A DNA stretch of 25,198 nt from a virus, in the IMG/VR virus record IMGVR_UViG_3300024348_002021, positions 1 to 25,198 of that record; one strand, written 5' to 3'. The translations under genes and the position numbers were made by a program. Positions within the stretch are counted from its first letter, which is position 1. Every line of letters starts with the position of its first letter. The notes beneath the pieces are model-generated. The model was not told the DNA's origin, did no database searches, and was given only the letters and a program-made list of their open reading frames with translations. Shown one piece after another: positions 2,408 through 22,919 of the stretch.

Positions 2408-2437
2408 TTGACATCGGGTCAGATGTCGTGTTATAAT
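2408..2437 (+). promoter_or_regulatory. Strong extended -10 sigma70 promoter of the outer-membrane-protein gene
   Basis: TTGACA (2408-2413), an 18-base spacer and TATAAT (2432-2437), with TGT just before the -10, making TGTTATAAT an extended -10. The spacer contains GGTCAG, which recurs in the promoter at 20159. The predicted start near 2444 falls at the foot of a stem-loop. Confidence 0.8.
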
Positions 2438-2527: not shown

Positions 2528-3385
2528 ATGAATAAATTATTAAGAACCGCTATTGTGGGGACTGCATTGCTAACAGTCCCATACATCGCATTCGCGGATG
2601 AAACGGCAACAGAAACGACAACAGAAACGACAAACAGTGTTTCTGTTACTGGCACATATGAAGGTACGGCTTCTGTAGATTCAACTACAAAAGATTTAAC
2701 GTACACTCAAGGTCTAGACCTTGTTATGGTTGGAACTTCTCCACATGGTAGTGTTACAGTAAACATCGATGAAACTGCTACTGTTGGTGATTTATATCTA
2801 GATACTAATCTCTTTAATTTTGATGTACGCCTTGGTAAGGTTGACAGCGTAACAGGAATTAAAGTAAGTACATCTATTGCAGGTTTCACAGTATCAGTGC
2901 ATAAAGCAACTGGTAGTGGTGGAGCAACTACAGTAGATGCAAGTACAGTATTTGGACCACTTACTGTTTCTGGCGAAGACATCTTAGATGATAGTCGTCT
3001 ATTAAGTGCGGGAATGGGAATTGCTGGTATTGACTTAAATGGTTCATATCAAAACACAACAACAGGAACAAATACTATTGTTGACGCTGGTTTAGGAATA
3101 CAAGGTATCTCAGTCGATGTTGCTCACGCTTCAATCGGTGATGCTAGTGTTACTAAAACTGGAACAAGCAAACATGCGTTGTTAGGTACTATGACTAGTG
3201 CTACAAATGGCACAAGTGTTAAAGGTGTAAAGGCATCTATGGGTGACCTTTCTGCTAAACTTGTAAATTTAAATAGCAACAACACTTATACGTTATCATT
3301 AGAACGTGGAATCATGACTTACTCATATGAGAAAGTTTCTGGTGGCGCTTCTACGGTTTCAGCAGGTGTAAAAGTTACGTTTTAG
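2528..3385 (+). CDS. Secreted outer-membrane beta-barrel (porin-like) protein
   Basis: A 285-residue protein with a classical signal peptide: Met-Asn-Lys-Leu-Leu-Arg, a hydrophobic core to about residue 20, and a probable cut after AFA at residue 23. The mature part is rich in Thr, Ser, Gly and Val, has alternating hydrophobic residues typical of beta strands, no cysteine, and ends in V-K-V-T-F; a terminal Phe is the usual signal for insertion by the BAM machinery. A barrel of roughly 12-16 strands is plausible from the length. The gene is a self-contained unit with a strong promoter, a leader hairpin, an AAAAGGAGA ribosome site and a strong terminator. It could be a small porin improving nutrient uptake by the infected cell, or a protein that masks receptors against superinfection. 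The family is uncertain; export and a barrel fold are the better-supported parts. Confidence 0.7.
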   Translation: MNKLLRTAIVGTALLTVPYIAFADETATETTTETTNSVSVTGTYEGTASVDSTTKDLTYTQGLDLVMVGTSPHGSVTVNIDETATVGDLYLDTNLFNFDVRLGKVDSVTGIKVSTSIAGFTVSVHKATGSGGATTVDASTVFGPLTVSGEDILDDSRLLSAGMGIAGIDLNGSYQNTTTGTNTIVDAGLGIQGISVDVAHASIGDASVTKTGTSKHALLGTMTSATNGTSVKGVKASMGDLSAKLVNLNSNNTYTLSLERGIMTYSYEKVSGGASTVSAGVKVTF

Positions 3386-3508: not shown

Positions 3509-3949
3509 ATGACAAAAACATTTCTACAATGGTGGTTATTTTTTGTGCTACAATTAATAATCTTAGGGGCTTCATACATATACGAATTACATTTGTATAT
3601 TCTTAACAACGACCAAACTTATATTTCTTTTATACTAATAGGTATTTGGTTACTTACAAGTATGCGAATTGGATATAAATTAGTAAAAAATATATCAACA
3701 TCAAACGAAAAATTCTGGTTTATTGCTGAAACTTGTATGGCAATAGGTATGATGGGAACTGTTTTAGGTTTCATTCTCATGCTCGGAAGCAGTGACTTAG
3801 GAAGTATAGATCCATCAGATGTAGAAGGTATGAAAAACGTAATAGGACATCTGGCGAAAGGAATGGCAACTGCTCTATTAACTACTCTTACCGGTCTAAT
3901 AGTATCCGTTTCTTTAAGAACTCAATTAATGATTGGAGAGGGTGAGTAA
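3509..3949 (+). CDS. MotA/TolQ/ExbB-like proton channel protein
   Basis: A 146-residue protein with four predicted membrane helices (about 7-27, 40-58, 74-93, 118-135). The last two carry the MotA/TolQ/ExbB signature: GMMGTVLGFI at 80-89 and GMATALLTTLTGLIVS at 118-133, matching the G-x-x-G-T-V-x-G and A-L-x-T-T-x-x-G-L patterns. Family members form a pentameric inner-membrane channel that couples the proton gradient to work in the periplasm through an ExbD/TolR/MotB partner. It is shorter than ExbB (about 240 residues) and lacks the large cytoplasmic loop. The next gene starts immediately after its stop codon and has the expected partner architecture. It is the first gene of a five-gene operon behind a late-type box. 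The family call is fairly secure; the cellular task is unknown. Confidence 0.78.
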   Translation: MTKTFLQWWLFFVLQLIILGASYIYELHLYILNNDQTYISFILIGIWLLTSMRIGYKLVKNISTSNEKFWFIAETCMAIGMMGTVLGFILMLGSSDLGSIDPSDVEGMKNVIGHLAKGMATALLTTLTGLIVSVSLRTQLMIGEGE

Positions 3950-4708
3950 ATGTCTGTAAATCGATACGGTTCAAACCTGTCGTTCAATGATGTATTGTTC
4001 AATGCACTATTAGGGTTTGTAGTATTATTCGTATTAGCACTTCTGTTAATCAATCCAATAACAAAAAAATCTGATATTCCAGCGAAAGCAGAGATAATGA
4101 TTATCGTAGAATGGGACGATGAATCTCCTGACGATATAGATACGTGGGTAAAAGGTCCCCTTATGGGCGCACCAATTAGTTTTCAAAATAAACATAGTGG
4201 AATGATGCACTTAGACAGAGATGACTTAGGTAGAACATCAGATACTATGATTATTGATGGCAAAAAAATAGTTATAAAAGTAAATCGTGAAGTTGTAACT
4301 ATGCGTGGTATAGTAAAAGGTGATTACTACATCAATATACACGTATATAACAAACCAAAGGGAAGTGAACCGACTAAATATACAGTGACACTGATGGATG
4401 TTAATCCATATAAAGAAGTTTACGTTATACAAGGTGAAGTTACGAGTCGTGGCGATATTGTTCGACTTCCTGGTTTCACATTAGATGAAGAAGGTGAAGT
4501 AACGGATATATGGACAAGTGATAAAATAATAGTAGGCACAAGAGACCAAGCATCAGTCATTGATGGTGCTGGTGGTTATCAAGCCTATGATGAAGCAATA
4601 CGTACCTCAGCAGAGGCCGCACTGGCCCAAGACGATGATATGCATAGTTCAATGGATGATGCTGAAGCAGATGCGGCAGTACGCCTAGCGACTGGTGATG
4701 AAGAATAA
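3950..4708 (+). CDS. ExbD/TolR-like anchor with periplasmic YfaP/DUF2135-like domain
   Basis: A 252-residue protein with one membrane helix at about 16-36. Its start (SFNDVLFNALLGFVVLF) recalls the ExbD/TolR/MotB helix, in which a conserved Asp before V-L carries protons; here that residue is Asp14. The periplasmic part begins near residue 40 and contains D62-I-D64-T-W66-V-K-G-P, followed by H-L-D-R-D-D-L-G, a pattern like the DxDxW-V-x-x-P-x-G beta-sandwich domains (YfaP/DUF2135 type). The last 50 residues are acidic and Ala-rich. Position and topology pair it with the upstream channel gene, to which it is directly abutted. The combination of an ExbD-type helix with this domain, rather than the usual TolR/ExbD fold, is unusual. 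It suggests force or signal transmission to an unknown periplasmic partner. The domain name is moderately certain. Confidence 0.62.
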   Translation: MSVNRYGSNLSFNDVLFNALLGFVVLFVLALLLINPITKKSDIPAKAEIMIIVEWDDESPDDIDTWVKGPLMGAPISFQNKHSGMMHLDRDDLGRTSDTMIIDGKKIVIKVNREVVTMRGIVKGDYYINIHVYNKPKGSEPTKYTVTLMDVNPYKEVYVIQGEVTSRGDIVRLPGFTLDEEGEVTDIWTSDKIIVGTRDQASVIDGAGGYQAYDEAIRTSAEAALAQDDDMHSSMDDAEADAAVRLATGDEE

Positions 4709-4727: not shown

Positions 4728-5417
4728 ATGCTTATAAATGGTGTGACAATTGATATGATGATTCAATTTTATATAGTTGGATTATTCACTCTTATATTAG
4801 TATGCTTGTACGCATTGATACAAAGTAAAGCGAATAAACTTTATACTTTTACGATAATACCATTAGCATTGATTATAGCAAGTATGACTTGGCAAGGTAT
4901 CAAAATGTTACAAGGTATGCCAGTATATGGATTACCAATGCAACAACAGGTTCAAGTAATGTTTGTACACGATAGTAAACCTTGGATATATGTATTATTG
5001 AATTCAGAGAATGGTCCAAAATTTTATAAAATAGATTGGACAGAAGAAAATAAAAAGAAAATGAAAGACTTACAGAAGAAAATAGGTTCAAGTGATGGTG
5101 ATGGAGAATTTAAAGAAGGTAATCCAGGAGAATCAGATTCATTCTTCTTTACTCCAATGATGAATATGGGAGAGTTTCAAGGAAAAGAACCAGAAGAATC
5201 GAGAAATTCAGGAGTAACATTTGAAAATAATGTTATAACTGGAAGCGGACCAGGCAATACAACAAATCCAGATAGACCTAGTTTGGAACACGAACATGAA
5301 TCTGAAGAAGACGGAATTATAAGAGGCGATAGTATCACTATCCCATGGTCTACCCTATTTTCAGTTCCAGAACATAAAGAAACATTTATTGGTCCATTAA
5401 ATGAGGGAGAAGAATAA
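4728..5417 (+). CDS. Unknown envelope protein with two membrane helices
   Basis: A 229-residue protein not recognised as any family. Two hydrophobic helices lie at about residues 8-28 and 37-55, so the carboxy 170 residues should be on the same side as the amino end. That soluble part begins with a short hydrophobic, beta-prone stretch (VQVMFVHDSKPWIYVLL), then a lysine-rich helix near 100-117, and continues as a Gly/Glu/Ser-rich, probably disordered region with F-F-F-T-P, ending in an acidic tail. A GGAGAAG ribosome site precedes the ATG. The stop overlaps the next start by one base (TAATG). Membership of the ExbB/ExbD-like operon suggests it is a third membrane component of the same assembly; that is inference. 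Confidence 0.6.
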   Translation: MLINGVTIDMMIQFYIVGLFTLILVCLYALIQSKANKLYTFTIIPLALIIASMTWQGIKMLQGMPVYGLPMQQQVQVMFVHDSKPWIYVLLNSENGPKFYKIDWTEENKKKMKDLQKKIGSSDGDGEFKEGNPGESDSFFFTPMMNMGEFQGKEPEESRNSGVTFENNVITGSGPGNTTNPDRPSLEHEHESEEDGIIRGDSITIPWSTLFSVPEHKETFIGPLNEGEE

Positions 5418-5710
5418 TGTTATCAGAAAGTGTAGGAGCAGTTTTAATGATAGGACATTTTATTGTGTCAATTTTTAATGTACAACTTGGTGCACCAGTT
5501 ATCTATACAATGCCATTTGAAACTATGGAGCAATGTCAATTCTATGGCGAACAATTGCCAAAAGACATGCAGATAGATATTGAGTGGAAGCATAGTACAA
5601 GATATCAATGTTACACACTTGCACAATTTCAAGAAATGCAACGACAACAGATTGCGGCACAACAAGGTACTGCACCTGAACCACAAGATTCAGAGGAACC
5701 AGGAGTATAA
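5417..5710 (+). CDS. Unknown small exported or anchored protein with a Cys pair
   Basis: A 97-residue protein. A hydrophobic stretch at about residues 6-28 could be an uncleaved anchor or signal peptide; the rest includes Cys39 and Cys65, which could form a disulphide if it lies in the periplasm, and a Gln/Pro/Glu-rich tail. The segment F-E-T-M-E-Q-C-Q-F-Y-G between the hydrophobic start and the second cysteine resembles small phage proteins of the type with a single disulphide-bonded helix pair, but no family can be named. It is translationally coupled to the upstream gene (TAATG) and only six bases from the protease-like gene that follows, so it is part of the same five-gene operon. Confidence 0.58.
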   Translation: MLSESVGAVLMIGHFIVSIFNVQLGAPVIYTMPFETMEQCQFYGEQLPKDMQIDIEWKHSTRYQCYTLAQFQEMQRQQIAAQQGTAPEPQDSEEPGV

Positions 5711-5716
5711 TATCTA

Positions 5717-6568
5717 ATGAAAAAAATATTCAGTTTTATAAAAGAATTATTACTAATAAGATTATTAATTAAACTTATAAAAAATCCTATGTTATTAGTG
5801 ATAGTTGTTTTGCTTGTTTTTCTAAGTAAAGACCAAGCAGTCGAATGGTATGATGAATACATGGTACTATATGAAGAAGCAAATAACAAAATAGAAGAAG
5901 ACGAAAACTCTGGAGGATTAACTTTTACGAAGATTGACGAAAACTTATATACCTTAACAGGTACAGTAAAAGAAGGTGATTGTGAAAAAATCGCACCCCA
6001 AATGCCAGATGCATTTGCTTTAATTTTAGAGAGCCCTGGTGGAAATCTAGCAGAAGGATCATGTCTTGCGGCTCATATAAAACTTCGTAGCGTAGTTACA
6101 GTCGTTAGGTCTGATGAGGTAATGAATGAATTTGGTGAAATTGTTTACATTCCCGGCTCATATATGGACGAGGAAGATACCGCCGATTATATGAAAGATA
6201 AGGCAATATGTGCATCAGCATGTGGATTAATGTTCTTAGGTGGTGATAAACGATATTTAATAGGAGATGTATACTTTGGAATACATGGACCTGGCACTCC
6301 ACCAGGTAGTATGAATGGCGCAAGTCCAGGGGCTATTGAGTCTTCAGCGTTTAGAAGTGCATCGTCATTAATGAAATTACTTAAATCTCTAGGAGTTGCA
6401 GACGAAGATTTAAGATTATTATTCATTCAAATTCCAAACGCATCGATGTATTGGCTACATCCTAGAGACTTCGAAATAAAACCAGCATTGACATCAATTG
6501 CTACTAATTATGTAAATTTCTTTGGTTTCACAGGAAGCGATTTAGAAGGTGGTATTCGCCAAAGATAA
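5717..6568 (+). CDS. Membrane-anchored ClpP/SppA-fold protease-like protein (COG3904 type)
   Basis: A 283-residue protein with a basic amino end, one membrane helix at about 24-40, and a soluble domain that should face the periplasm. The domain has the hallmarks of the ClpP/crotonase fold as seen in predicted periplasmic COG3904 proteins: E105-S-P-G-G109 with E-G-S-x-L-A-A-H-I following, the probable nucleophile Ser167 in C-A-S-A-C-G-L-M-F-L-G-G (165-176), and His190 in G-I-H-G-P. In ClpP/SppA-like enzymes the Ser lies after the oxyanion glycines and works with His or Lys. Cys165 and Cys169 flank the serine, as in family members. It is the last gene of the operon with the ExbB/ExbD-like pair, suggesting a protease that processes or is activated by that machine. 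Proteolytic activity is inferred, not shown. Confidence 0.72.
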   Translation: MKKIFSFIKELLLIRLLIKLIKNPMLLVIVVLLVFLSKDQAVEWYDEYMVLYEEANNKIEEDENSGGLTFTKIDENLYTLTGTVKEGDCEKIAPQMPDAFALILESPGGNLAEGSCLAAHIKLRSVVTVVRSDEVMNEFGEIVYIPGSYMDEEDTADYMKDKAICASACGLMFLGGDKRYLIGDVYFGIHGPGTPPGSMNGASPGAIESSAFRSASSLMKLLKSLGVADEDLRLLFIQIPNASMYWLHPRDFEIKPALTSIATNYVNFFGFTGSDLEGGIRQR

Positions 6569-6627: not shown

Positions 6628-6652
6628 AAATTTATTAAATTAGAGGTGAAAT

Positions 6653-7687
6653 ATGTTAAAATCATTTTTTCTCACAAAAGAATATGGTGTATATGCGTGG
6701 CTAATGCTTTCCTTTCTACTAGGAATAATTTGGTACAACGTAGAAATACTAGTATTCTACAACAGTTGGAACAAAGAAATATATGATGTAATTCAATCAC
6801 TACAAGAAGATAGATTCTGGGAGTTATTTCTGGGATGGGACGCTGGTAGATTTTTGAATTTCATGGCTTTAACTGAGGGAGTTCAACCCTCATTCTTAGA
6901 GATTATTGTACTTTATATTCCCATAGCAGTATATTCCACATGGCAAACCCAACGATATTGTTTTAAATGGCGAGAAGCCAATACTAAACACTATATGTCT
7001 AGGTGGGAACACTCACCAGCAAAAATTGAAGGTGGCTCACAGCGTATACAAGAAGACTTAATGATATTTGGTAAGACTCTGCAAGGTTTATTTACTGGAT
7101 TCTTTAGTGCGATACTTATATTATTTGCGTTTCTTCCTATCTTGTGGAATTTATCAGAGAGTTTACCCGTCTGGAATGGTCAAATTATTCCTGGATTCTT
7201 AGTATGGGTTGCTTTAACTGTATCAATTGGTGGTACTTTAATATCACTTATACTGGGTTGGAAACTACCTAAACTTGAATATAATAATCAGGTAGTAGAA
7301 GCAAAAATGAGAAAACAATTAGTATTCTCTGAAGATGATTTTAATGCAAGAGCAACAGCAGTCTTATTTCCTATGTTCTATTCTGTACGTAGAAACTACT
7401 ATAGACTATTCAACTGGTATATGGGATTTGGTGTATGGCAAACAGCATTTGGATTATGTGTAGGTAACTTAGCACTAGTTGTTCTAGCACCAGCATACTT
7501 CGACCAATTAATCACACTTGGAGTATTATTCCAAGTACTCAACGCATTCGGACGAGTAGAAAGTTCAATGGGCTACTTTATAGACCGTTGGACAACGATT
7601 GTTGATTTCTTATCAGTCATTAGACGTATTCGAGAATTCAATAAGGCACTCGATGATGCTAAAGATGTAACATTTGATAATCCATAA
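6653..7687 (+). CDS. SbmA/BacA-family peptide transporter
   Basis: A 344-residue multi-helix membrane protein that aligns by eye over most of its length with E. coli SbmA (406 residues). The start (M-L-K-S-F-F) and the segments W-R-E-A-N-T-K-H-Y-M-x-x-W, I-E-G-G-S-Q-R-I-Q-E-D, K-L-P-x-L-E-Y-x-N-Q-x-V-E-A, S-E-D-D and S-V-R-R-N-Y-Y-R-L-F all match family-conserved stretches, as does I-T-L-G-V-L-F-Q-V-x-N-A-F-G-x-V near the end. SbmA/BacA proteins are homodimeric inner-membrane importers driven by the proton gradient that take up antimicrobial peptides, bleomycin-type drugs and short peptides. There is no ATP-binding domain, as expected. It is shorter at the amino end, lacking part of the first helical region. 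An AGAGGTGA ribosome site fixes the ATG. It follows the envelope operon by 84 bases and may or may not be cotranscribed. Confidence 0.9.
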   Translation: MLKSFFLTKEYGVYAWLMLSFLLGIIWYNVEILVFYNSWNKEIYDVIQSLQEDRFWELFLGWDAGRFLNFMALTEGVQPSFLEIIVLYIPIAVYSTWQTQRYCFKWREANTKHYMSRWEHSPAKIEGGSQRIQEDLMIFGKTLQGLFTGFFSAILILFAFLPILWNLSESLPVWNGQIIPGFLVWVALTVSIGGTLISLILGWKLPKLEYNNQVVEAKMRKQLVFSEDDFNARATAVLFPMFYSVRRNYYRLFNWYMGFGVWQTAFGLCVGNLALVVLAPAYFDQLITLGVLFQVLNAFGRVESSMGYFIDRWTTIVDFLSVIRRIREFNKALDDAKDVTFDNP

Positions 7688-7766: not shown

Positions 7767-7985
7767 ATGAAATTCTTATATGTAGATGTTGACCACCGAA
7801 AAGTGGTTGGAATATTTAAAAACACTAATGAAGAAATAATAAAACTTAATATGAAAGAGTTGCAAATACTATCACAGAAAGAACGATATGTACTTAATTC
7901 GAAGATATTACCCGAAATAGATGAGGCTCTTTATGCTGTAGGTCAGTATACTAAGGGGCATAGTCCCTGGTGGAAGTTTTGGTAA
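7767..7985 (+). CDS. Small protein of unknown function
   Basis: A 72-residue soluble protein not assigned to a family. It starts with a beta-like segment (MKFLYVDVDHRKVVGIF), followed by a polar helix-prone middle, and ends in an aromatic cluster S-P-W-W-K-F-W that could be a membrane-interface or protein-binding tail. A strong ribosome site, AGAGGAGA, seven bases before the ATG supports translation. A terminator starts 22 bases after the stop, making it the last gene of the unit. There is no signal peptide. Confidence 0.55.
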   Translation: MKFLYVDVDHRKVVGIFKNTNEEIIKLNMKELQILSQKERYVLNSKILPEIDEALYAVGQYTKGHSPWWKFW

Positions 7986-8007: not shown

Positions 8008-8031
8008 ATCCCAGCAAGTCTGGGATTTTTT
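8008..8031 (+). terminator. Rho-independent terminator
   Basis: ATCCCAG (8008-8014) and CTGGGAT (8020-8026) form a perfect 7-base stem with a 5-base loop, followed by T-rich sequence. It separates the transporter region from the late operon starting at 8094. Confidence 0.88.
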
Positions 8032-8052
8032 ATGTCTGGTCGTCTTCAAAAT

Positions 8053-20158: not shown

Positions 20159-20188
20159 TTGACAAGATGGTCAGATTTATGTTATAAT
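20159..20188 (+). promoter_or_regulatory. Strong extended -10 sigma70 promoter of the clamp gene
   Basis: TTGACA (20159-20164), an 18-base spacer and TATAAT (20183-20188) with TGT before it (TGTTATAATTAA). The sequence GGTCAGAT and TGTTATAATTAA recur almost exactly in the promoter at 2408. It begins at the stop codon of the polymerase gene. Confidence 0.8.
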
Positions 20189-20218: not shown

Positions 20219-20974
20219 ATGCGTGATATTTTAAAGGACATTGTTAAACATACACATTCTCTTGGAATCATCCAAGCGGCAAAAGTGACAACCGACAATG
20301 AAAGTACAACTATTGATGCAATGGATGATGACCGTACTGTTGTATTGATAGGTAAATTACACAAGCCAGTTCCTGAATTTGAAGGGAAGTTTGGTCTAGG
20401 TCGACTAGGTGTGTTAAGTGGATTACTTAGTTATACTAGCGAGGACAAAGAAGGAAATCCAATTGAAGCAGATGTTAGTGTAGGAACAGAAACACGAAAT
20501 GGTGAAGATGTTACTACTGAACTTAACTTCTCAATGGATGGTGGGTTTGATAGTTCATATCGTGTAATCGTAAGTGAATTAGTGGATGCACAAATTAAAA
20601 CAGCAAGTTTTAGAGGTGCAAATTGGAATGTAGATATCATGCCAACACAGAAAGCAATCAAAGATTTACAATACTTTGCGGGCATTCTAGGTGCATTTGA
20701 CCCACTACTTACTGCAAGAACAGTAAATGGTAATTTAGTTTTCTTTATTGGTGATAGTTCAACAGATAAAGTAGAACTTCCATTTGCATTAAATGTCGAA
20801 GGTGAACTGAAGACTGGATGGAGTTTTCCACTGTCAACGGTTCTTACTATTCTTAGATTAAGTGATACAAGTACAATGAATATGAAAATCTCAGACCAAG
20901 GTGCTATGATGATTCAAGTAGACAGTGGACTGGGGGTGTATGAGTATATTCTTCCAGCAAAAGCGGGACACTAA
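20219..20974 (+). CDS. 45: Sliding clamp, T4 gp45 type
   Basis: A 251-residue protein matching the plan of T4 gp45 (228 residues), the trimeric ring that tethers the polymerase and, in T4, activates late transcription. Recognition rests on the position after the polymerase gene, the beta-rich composition and segments such as G-R-L-G-V-L-S-G-L-L-S (compare G-F-L-G-I-L-S-L in T4), and a carboxy part with alternating strands and Y-E-Y-I-L-P. Sequence identity with T4 is low, as is usual for clamps. An AAGGAGCGAAA ribosome site precedes the ATG, and a strong promoter lies in the 60-base gap. If the late-type GATAAATA boxes are genuine, this clamp is the expected coactivator at them. Confidence 0.82.
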   Translation: MRDILKDIVKHTHSLGIIQAAKVTTDNESTTIDAMDDDRTVVLIGKLHKPVPEFEGKFGLGRLGVLSGLLSYTSEDKEGNPIEADVSVGTETRNGEDVTTELNFSMDGGFDSSYRVIVSELVDAQIKTASFRGANWNVDIMPTQKAIKDLQYFAGILGAFDPLLTARTVNGNLVFFIGDSSTDKVELPFALNVEGELKTGWSFPLSTVLTILRLSDTSTMNMKISDQGAMMIQVDSGLGVYEYILPAKAGH

Positions 20975-21012: not shown

Positions 21013-21210
21013 ATGGCAAGAGACATAATGAAAAAGAAACGCACACGTCTTATATATTTAAAAAAACAACATAGAGATTTAGATGATGGTATAATTACTG
21101 CATATAATATGCATACTAAAGATAATATTGTTTCTAAATTGAAATTAAAGAAATTACATATAAAAGAAGAAATATCACAACTAGAAGAAGAATTATCTCT
21201 AAGCGAGTGA
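21013..21210 (+). CDS. YdcH/DUF465-like small helical protein
   Basis: A 65-residue basic protein forming a probable helical hairpin. The pattern L-x-x-Q-H-R-D-L-D-x-x-I, then L-K-L-K-K-L-x-I-K-E-E-I-x-x-L fits the YdcH/DUF465 family, best known from proteobacteria and common in alphaproteobacteria, where the function is unknown. It is expressed from an ATAGGAGAAG ribosome site. Its last four bases, GTGA, contain both the GTG start of the apt gene and its own TGA, so the two genes are translationally coupled. This suggests that it came from a bacterial host; that is inference. Confidence 0.62.
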   Translation: MARDIMKKKRTRLIYLKKQHRDLDDGIITAYNMHTKDNIVSKLKLKKLHIKEEISQLEEELSLSE

Positions 21211-21758
21211 CCATTATTAAGCCAACTTCTGATACTATACAAAATCTGATTAGAGTTATACCAGACCATCCTAGGCCTGGTGTTCTCTATCAAGATATGG
21301 CAAGTGTGTTTAATGCTCCGCAAGGTGTACAACATGTTATGTCATTGTTCCGAGATTATATCTCTGATAATAATATAGAATTTAATAGAATTATTGGATT
21401 AGATGCTCGGGGATTTCCGATGGCTGGTGCTTTAAGTTCAGAAACTGGTATACCATTTTCAATGGCTAGAAAGAAAGGCAAACTACCTGGCGAAACAATA
21501 TTTACTGAATATGAACTAGAATATGGAACTGATGAGTTACATTTACAAACAGACGCAATAAATAAAGGTGACCAAGTATTAATTATAGACGATGTTATTG
21601 CAACAGGTGGAACAATCGAGGCTGTTATTAAATTAACAGATAGATTTGAAGCAGATGTTGTGTGTATATTAAGCATAATGGAACTTGAGTTTTTAGGTGG
21701 TGGTGCGAAGTTACGTGATACAGGACATGACGTGTACTCAATATTACAAGAACAGTAG
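21207..21758 (+). CDS. apt: Adenine phosphoribosyltransferase
   Basis: A 183-residue protein, the same length as E. coli Apt. It contains the family signatures: I-P-D-H-P-R-P-G-V near the start, GLDARGFPMAGAL, and the PRPP-binding loop V-L-I-I-D-D-V-I-A-T-G-G-T. Apt converts adenine and phosphoribosyl pyrophosphate to AMP and pyrophosphate, salvaging adenine for nucleotide and DNA synthesis. The start is GTG, overlapping the stop of the YdcH-like gene (GTGA); no earlier ATG exists that would add conserved sequence. It sits 72 bases before the SAM synthetase gene, which has its own promoter. The key residues are intact, so the enzyme should be active in the infected cell cytoplasm. Confidence 0.93.
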   Translation: MTIIKPTSDTIQNLIRVIPDHPRPGVLYQDMASVFNAPQGVQHVMSLFRDYISDNNIEFNRIIGLDARGFPMAGALSSETGIPFSMARKKGKLPGETIFTEYELEYGTDELHLQTDAINKGDQVLIIDDVIATGGTIEAVIKLTDRFEADVVCILSIMELEFLGGGAKLRDTGHDVYSILQEQ

Positions 21759-21768
21759 AATAAACCAC

Positions 21769-21797
21769 TTGACCTTTGCCCTATTATTTGATATAAT
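21769..21797 (+). promoter_or_regulatory. Extended -10 sigma70 promoter of the SAM synthetase gene
   Basis: TTGACC (21769-21774), a 17-base spacer and TATAAT (21792-21797) with TGA before it, so the -10 is extended. It lies 33 bases before the ATG at 21831. Confidence 0.8.
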
Positions 21798-21830
21798 AGT
21801 AGGAAAGATTAACTTTTATTAAGGATTTGA

Positions 21831-22919
21831 ATGAATAACTATATTTTTACAAGTGAGAGTGTTAGTGATGGACACCCAGATAAGGTTGCTGACCAGATTA
21901 GTGATGCGTTAGTTGATGCAGGACTTAAAAATGGTGACGAAACAACAAGAGTTGCAGTTGAAACATTAGTAACTACTAATCATGTAACACTTGCAGGGGA
22001 AGTAAAGAACTTTAACGTAACCAAGGATGAGGTAGAAGAAATCATCCGTGATGTAGTGAAATACATTGGATATGAACAAGAGGGATTTCACTGGGATAAA
22101 CTAAAAATCTATAATGAAATTCACTCACAGTCAGGCGATATCGCACTAGGAACCGATGATTTCGGTGCTGGTGACCAAGGACTAATGTTTGGGTATGCTT
22201 GTAATGATAATGAGGCTATGCTACCAGCACCTATATATTACGCACATGAGATACTTAAAGAACTTAAAGAGAAACGCATCACAGGCGCTGATTCCTTGCT
22301 TCCAGACGCTAAATCCCAAGTAAGTCTACAATATGAGGGTGGTAAAGTAAAACGTTGTGACCAAGTAGTAATATCGACTCAACACGCAGTAGACCGAGGA
22401 GATGAAGCAGGAGCAGAGGCCAGAGTGGCTGGTGCGTACGTACTAGAAGATTTGATTGATAGTGACACTATATGGCATATCAATCCTACGGGCAAATTTG
22501 AAATTGGTGGCCCAGATGGAGATGCTGGATTAACGGGTAGAAAGATTATTGTTGATACATATGGTGGTTATGCACCCCACGGTGGTGGTGCATTCTCAGG
22601 AAAAGACCCTACGAAAGTAGATAGAAGTGCCGCTTATATGGCACGTTGGATTGCGAAAAATGTTGTAGCAGATAACATGGCAGATTGGTGTCAAATTCAA
22701 TTGAGTTATGCTATCGGTGTTAAAGAACCAACAAGTATCTATGTAGATTCAAATGGACACAACAGAACTATTCAAAAGTATATTGCTGATAATATTGATT
22801 TAACACCAAAAGGGATTATTGATAGATTTGATTTATTCAATTTTCATCAATATAGTAAGAATTGTGTATACGGACATTTTGGTGACAAAGATGTTCCATG
22901 GGAGAAAATAGGATGGTAA
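21831..22919 (+). CDS. metK: S-adenosylmethionine synthetase
   Basis: A 362-residue enzyme making SAM from methionine and ATP. The hallmark motifs are present: SESVSDGHPDKVADQISD at the start (catalytic His and ATP site), GAGDQGLMFGYAC, the N-P-T-G-K-F-E-I-G-G-P segment, and GGGAFSGKDPTKVDRSAAY for phosphate binding. It is about 20 residues shorter than E. coli MetK (384), with differences in the loops and a cut-back carboxy terminus, F-G-D-K-D-V-P-W-E-K, that keeps the conserved P-W-E. An ATTAAGGATTTGA ribosome region precedes the ATG, and a clear promoter is upstream. In a phage it would raise SAM for methylation reactions or affect host methionine control; the purpose is not evident from this window. 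Confidence 0.95.
   Translation: MNNYIFTSESVSDGHPDKVADQISDALVDAGLKNGDETTRVAVETLVTTNHVTLAGEVKNFNVTKDEVEEIIRDVVKYIGYEQEGFHWDKLKIYNEIHSQSGDIALGTDDFGAGDQGLMFGYACNDNEAMLPAPIYYAHEILKELKEKRITGADSLLPDAKSQVSLQYEGGKVKRCDQVVISTQHAVDRGDEAGAEARVAGAYVLEDLIDSDTIWHINPTGKFEIGGPDGDAGLTGRKIIVDTYGGYAPHGGGAFSGKDPTKVDRSAAYMARWIAKNVVADNMADWCQIQLSYAIGVKEPTSIYVDSNGHNRTIQKYIADNIDLTPKGIIDRFDLFNFHQYSKNCVYGHFGDKDVPWEKIGW

Follow-up and report, generated by a model that had tools for sequence, protein, structure and literature searches.

The window, a stretch of 25,198 nucleotides of viral DNA, encodes a short transporter of the SbmA/BacA (SLiPT) family, which lies in a conserved cassette of envelope genes of large marine phages. 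At domain level the protein is a member of this family and a variant inside it. We tentatively read it, with a probability of roughly 0.4, as a working importer of periplasmic peptides which would be made early in infection. This functional reading is shaped by the combination of protease-, importer- and motor-like genes more than by the transporter alone. Membership in the SbmA/BacA family is of an already known kind; what is newly noticed here is a phage variant which lacks both the TM0 domain and the full ladder of glutamates. Phages are mentioned neither in the main text of a 2025 survey of the transporter family (PMC12003926) nor in that of a 2026 paper on how the family evolved and works (PMC13316013), and among the papers searched we found none linking SbmA to phage auxiliary metabolic genes.

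A short-form SbmA/BacA-like transporter

The gene and its translation signal are located as follows:

6642..6649, + strand: ribosome-binding site AGAGGTGA of the SbmA-like gene, 3 bases before the ATG, kept in loci L002 and L007
6653..7687, + strand: SbmA/BacA-like (SLiPT) transporter, short form, 344 amino acids, ATG start

The original prediction, made from the letters of the sequence, had called this gene SbmA/BacA-like, and the comparisons confirm the assignment. The protein matches the Pfam family SbmA_BacA (PF05992) with 257.6 bits (2.5e-76; family cut-off 24 bits) over profile positions 2-314 of 315, as well as the E. coli SbmA structures 9g3d and 7p34 at ~1e-51. When the phage family was aligned with E. 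coli SbmA using hhalign, SbmA residues 91-397 were covered with a probability of 100%; in the transport core, the identity between the window protein and E. coli SbmA is ~34%. Membrane-domain families alone match the 344 residues in Pfam and a nucleotide-binding domain is absent; furthermore, no ABC ATPase family was found among the 20 ORFs of the window scanned against Pfam.

The alignment of the phage protein begins at about SbmA residue 88-91, the TM0 domain (residues ~1-87) being absent. The prediction that part of the amino-terminal region is missing is therefore correct with respect to E. coli SbmA, but not in the sense of a defect: short bacterial members of 324, 336 and 338 amino acids, and a fourth represented by an open frame of 323 codons, also lack TM0, so that by the standard of the short form nothing is missing from the phage protein. 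Indeed, the NCBIfam model PRK12369 (326 positions) is aligned end to end, residues 1-334 of the window protein to model positions 1-323. The score (288.8 bits) is under the equivalog cut-off of 385, and that with the SbmA equivalog PRK11098 (230.2 bits) is under the cut-off of 492. Since both NCBI equivalog cut-offs are missed, the window protein is a divergent family member and not SbmA proper. Finally, the dN/dS ratio of ~0.07-0.11 between close relatives indicates strong purifying selection and, together with the full-length short form, leads us to reject a truncated gene or pseudogene.

Most of the proton ladder is retained

Peptide import by the SbmA dimer follows an alternating-access mechanism which relies on a ladder of glutamates; the ladder positions E193, E203, E269, E276, E287 and E378 were taken from the study describing it (PMC13316013) and followed through the phage sequences. 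Four of the six glutamates (E193, E269, E276 and E287) are invariant. Position E378 is Asp or Glu, mostly Asp (D318 in the window), and the gate residue Y368 is Tyr or Phe. The equivalent of E203 in the window is Q144; among the 48 informative phage sequences, whose counts do not represent independent events, this position is occupied by Gln (42), Trp (3), Asn (1) and Glu (2), the glutamate being kept in the two lineages L040 and L051. In contrast, 30 of 31 bacterial sequences have Glu there, the exception being L088, with Gln. Thus, the ladder of the window protein is incomplete, with E203 replaced by Q144 and E378 by D318 and the other four positions retained. It had also been proposed that the conserved core is kept: this holds for most of the ladder glutamates, but not for E203, which hardly any phage copy retains. 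The missing TM0 and the incomplete ladder, both of which were tested, are what makes this protein a variant rather than SbmA itself.

Ladder mutants of E. coli SbmA are reported to be inactive or impaired (PMC13316013), and the substitution E207A, at the residue matching E203, inactivates S. meliloti BacA (preprint PMC12486126). Because a residue reported as essential is changed in almost every phage copy, the energetics of the phage importer, as judged from this alignment, may differ from those of SbmA. The phage clade constitutes a natural experiment on proton coupling, in which a glutamate reported as essential has been replaced under purifying selection.

An envelope cassette with protease- and motor-like genes

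The SbmA-like gene belongs to a proposed transcription unit whose other elements are listed below.

2408..2437, + strand: perfect sigma-70 promoter with extended -10, TTGACA-18-TATAAT (12/12 consensus match), start of the proposed unit
2528..3385, + strand: outer-membrane beta-barrel-like secreted protein (signal peptide and C-terminal Phe, by eye; no convincing Pfam family)
3509..3949, + strand: MotA/TolQ/ExbB-like proton-channel subunit (PF01618, 7e-8, over the cut-off)
3950..4708, + strand: MotB/ExbD-like partner, with one transmembrane helix starting at the invariant Asp D14 and a predicted periplasmic domain
4728..5417, + strand: small two-helix membrane protein after the MotB-like gene, an order conserved in phages
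5417..5710, + strand: small anchored and probably periplasmic protein with conserved Cys, found upstream of the protease-like gene in ~40 loci
5717..6568, + strand: membrane-anchored ClpP/COG3904-like putative serine protease, recognised from motifs and predicted to face the periplasm
7767..7985, + strand: small protein, last gene before the terminator, conserved in L002-L007, no membrane helix predicted
8008..8034, + strand: terminator-like hairpin (8008-8026) and T-run, intrinsic type

These neighbours bear out the earlier statement that the transporter gene lies beside envelope genes. The most constant of them is the protease-like gene, which is located directly upstream of SbmA in all 59 loci with an evaluable flank, at a distance of 1-24 bp in most lineages measured. 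In 23 sequences of its product, the ESxGG motif, S167 in CASxC, H190 in GIHxP and four Cys are invariant, and the N-terminus is basic. The hhalign match to ClpP is weak (probability 20%) and no Pfam family was assigned. In addition, many loci have a gene for a true cytosolic ClpP (PF00574, down to 2.6e-33) inside the cassette or close to it.

The MotA-like protein carries the invariant motifs G..GT..G and TA..T...G, and the invariance of D14 emerges from an alignment of 20 MotB/ExbD-like sequences. The hhalign match of the partner to MotB at this Asp is weak, and so is the support for a DUF2135-like domain. Nevertheless, a MotA_ExbB domain and a partner with Asp at the helix start, which are the features expected of an ion-driven motor, are both present. 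The pair adjoins the protease and SbmA genes, upstream or downstream, in 28 loci, nearly always followed by the small membrane protein gene. There is also a large clade in which the motor pair is not adjacent; in its members G007 and G008 the MotA-like gene lies, with its partners, elsewhere on the contig (74 kb versus 41 kb, and 11 kb versus 60 kb, respectively). In L020 and L024, the pair was not found in the DNA examined around SbmA. As for the remaining genes, homologues of the barrel-like protein occur in L002-L007, in L066 and, more distantly, in the L069 contig, and PDB profile searches with the cassette neighbours gave nothing significant.

The MotB/ExbD-like protein has bacterial homologues (up to 5e-58) encoded beside a MotA homologue. 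In the bacterial genomes L131-L138, which belong to the same phylum, the MotA-MotB pair is present without SbmA or the membrane ClpP-like gene within ~8 kb, and the small third gene leaves at most weak signs beside it (a weak match to the 4728..5417 protein in the locus L124/L131 and a resemblance by eye in L137). This bacterial pair is possibly an undescribed family of ion-driven motors. Since it is found in bacteria away from SbmA, the module was probably borrowed and combined by phages. The sampled short bacterial SbmA genes, for their part, have no cassette gene in the surrounding ~4-16 kb.

The promoter and the terminator bracket the barrel-like gene, the motor-like genes, the genes for the small Cys protein and the protease-like protein, SbmA and the last small gene. 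The promoter arrangement recurs upstream of the homologue of the 2528 gene in L002-L007. At the position of the terminator, L002, L003 and L007 likewise have a hairpin, though its stem differs in sequence. The window contains a single further exact copy of the promoter pattern, at 20159-20188, where the spacer also shares GGTCAGAT. The ORF which follows at 20219 has no match in Pfam; by position and length, it is a probable sliding clamp. The repetition of the pattern before this ORF hints that the cassette, too, is expressed early, as far as can be judged from a promoter predicted by consensus match.

Other gene blocks were noted in passing. Between 942 and 2352, the window encodes three proteins in a row: one with a RyR domain (PF02026, 2.6e-9), one which by eye resembles HscB, and an iron-sulphur carrier of the A type (PF01521, 1.1e-18). 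A comparable block, seemingly with two such carriers, stands beside MotA/MotB-like genes in a 342-kb relative (L107), where nine tRNA genes are clustered close to the MotA/MotB-like genes (L107:316-2971); no tRNA genes were found in the window. At 21207-22919 of the window, an S-adenosylmethionine synthetase (three Pfam domains) is encoded beside a phosphoribosyltransferase-like gene (by eye).

Distribution among phages and phylogeny

The window is a virus record of 25 kb, whose family-B DNA polymerase (PolB) is at 47% to its nearest named phages, Sinorhizobium phage Phosso and Agrobacterium phage Atu_ph07, both jumbo phages. Scanning IMG/VR yielded 65 related loci, 60 of which form one group (clade A) at an identity of at least 63%. 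On several contigs the clade-A gene is accompanied by genes for a T4-type Gp23 capsid protein and a terminase, the largest of these contigs being 342 kb long; these genes, as well as the jumbo-phage kinship of the polymerase, establish that the gene is carried by phages, as originally claimed. The other 5 loci belong to a second T4-like lineage, in which SbmA is 40% identical, a clamp-loader gene is close by and, in part of the loci, the SbmA gene stands directly before PolB. In one locus of this second lineage (L064:8963-11598), the SbmA gene is followed by a gene for a TctA tricarboxylate-transporter membrane protein (PF01970, 3.2e-87) and then by one for a secreted protein which looks TctC-like by eye and has no match in Pfam.

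In the tree, 23 clade-A representatives form one clade (support 100/100) outside the sampled bacterial SbmA sequences, from which it is set off by a branch with 100/100 support and a length of 2.3; the bacterial sampling comprised 398 genomes of one phylum. A recently host-acquired auxiliary gene would be expected to nest among bacterial sequences, and such nesting is not seen. The phylogeny against host genes, which had been suggested as a check of the origin of the gene, thus lends no support to a recent transfer from a sampled host. Within the phages, the window SbmA and its L008 counterpart share 85% identity, but the MotA-like neighbours of the two just 30%; in quick trees the MotA- and MotB-like genes of the window group with those of L021/L022. 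The simplest reading of these conflicting kinships is that phage lineages exchanged SbmA without the genes next to it, and the quick trees suggest that the gene has probably moved in this way.

Four matches were obtained in annotated phage records, all distant to the window protein. Two come from Acinetobacter contigs under one phage name, and in the one examined chromosomal genes surround sbmA; the third is a 7.5-kb unverified Salmonella contig and the fourth is MT839843.1 (24% identity). One record labelled Acinetobacter phage MD-2021a (L067, CAKLQF020000003.1) consists here of bacterial chromosomal DNA, with gatA/gatB, tdcB and pepO, a mislabelling which would mislead surveys of phage-borne genes. 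Conversely, a contig filed under a Gammaproteobacteria MAG (L069, PBDY01000027.1) has the cassette and a terminase; because of the latter we treated it as phage, and it was probably binned by mistake. MAG binning is weak evidence for a host.

Possible functions of the cassette

The preferred reading is that the cassette would feed the infected cell. The membrane-anchored protease-like protein would act as a periplasmic trimming enzyme for proteins or peptides; the peptides produced would then enter the cell through the SbmA-like dimer, which would work by alternating access at the expense of the proton gradient. In the lineages with a cytosolic ClpP in or near the cassette, this enzyme could help degrade the imported peptides, while the MotA/MotB-like pair may be powered by the proton gradient as well and work on either the outer envelope or the import complex. 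Phage production would thereby be supplied with amino acids and nitrogen, and clearing peptides from the periplasm could be an added advantage. The data suggest, in this sense, that phages remodel the envelope of the cells they infect so that these take up peptides.

It is rather unlikely that the importer is primarily protective, that is, that it clears antimicrobial or microcin-like peptides from the infected cell's periplasm, or that the cassette makes the envelope more resistant to rival phages and to lysis from outside, feeding being secondary. SbmA-type import usually makes free-living cells sensitive to peptides, which argues against protection; moreover, we recognised no immunity-like gene, and the TctA gene after SbmA in L064 points to nutrient transport. 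Nonetheless, upkeep of the envelope would be a plausible task for the motor- and protease-like neighbours (compare the Tol and Ton motors), and bacteria do use SbmA, BacA and BclA to cope with peptides (PMC12003926).

The replacement of E203 brings in a different explanation, namely a paralogue with altered coupling, or without transport, which would not use its own proton ladder and would be a structural or gating part of a MotA/MotB-protease assembly, or else form inactive mixed dimers with the host SbmA. The near-constant Glu of the bacterial sequences, the loss of BacA function in E207A and the proton-driven motor-like pair adjoining SbmA are in line with such a role. We consider it unlikely, however, given that the other ladder positions stay Glu or Asp under strong purifying selection, that L040 and L051 keep Glu and that bacterial L088 also has Gln.

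A non-peptide substrate, such as a cofactor, a vitamin or a modified oligomer, is quite unlikely. The family is promiscuous, and the structure 6tqe of a full ABC transporter, which we take to be the related cobalamin transporter Rv1819c, was matched at 8.5e-14; yet SbmA is a far closer match, and the protease-like neighbour favours peptides. Very unlikely, in our view, is a single import machine spanning the envelope, whose SbmA-like dimer, uncoupled from its own ladder by the replacement of E203, would be driven or gated by the MotA/MotB-like motor and fed by the protease. Finally, bacterial DNA misassigned to a phage, of which the Acinetobacter records with chromosomal genes around sbmA are a reminder, is hardly credible and was rejected for the clade-A family in view of its 60 loci, the T4-type capsid and terminase genes on several contigs, the adjacent phage replication genes and the separation of the phage clade from sampled bacterial SbmA.

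The conservation of a phage version of this transporter implies that large marine phages invest in inner-membrane transport, and probably in a protease and a proton-driven motor alongside it. If the peptide-import reading is true, peptide uptake joins the ways in which viruses reprogram ocean bacteria.

Comparison with known systems

With E. coli SbmA and S. meliloti BacA, the phage protein shares the fold family and the transport core, including R190, E193, E269, E276 and E287, and it likewise carries no ATPase domain. It differs from them by lacking TM0, by having Gln (in some cases Asn or Trp) for E203 and mostly Asp for E378, and by being phage-borne and part of a cassette. The phage protein resembles in form the short bacterial SbmA proteins (PRK12369, 'putative transporter'), with a full-length alignment, a similar M(L/I)(K/R)SFF start and 39% identity; however, the phage proteins fall in a separate clade, and the sampled short forms keep E203. 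The 324-residue short form is encoded in a 1.2-Mb genome which looks SAR11-like by gene content. The full ABC transporters YddA and BclA have a homologous membrane domain, and YddA also lacks an equivalent of E203 (PMC13316013); unlike them, the phage protein is without a nucleotide-binding domain, and it keeps E287, which is absent in YddA.

A common logic, by analogy only, may link the cassette to the Fus system of Pectobacterium and to YddB-PqqL of E. coli, which couple a periplasmic protease with uptake (PMC6793856). The E. coli gene order is yddA-yddB-pqqL, so that an SbmA-related transporter is part of this operon. On the other hand, the protease of the phage cassette is ClpP-like and not of the M16 type, and a MotA/MotB-like pair takes the place of the TonB-like protein; the defining Fus-type set of a TonB-dependent receptor, an M16 protease and a TonB-like protein is missing, none of the three being recognised by Pfam in the cassette genes. 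The 5:2 ion-driven motors (MotAB, ExbBD, TolQR and ZorAB) have in common with the phage pair the MotA/ExbB domain and the partner Asp at the helix start, whereas the periplasmic domain of the phage partner is different.
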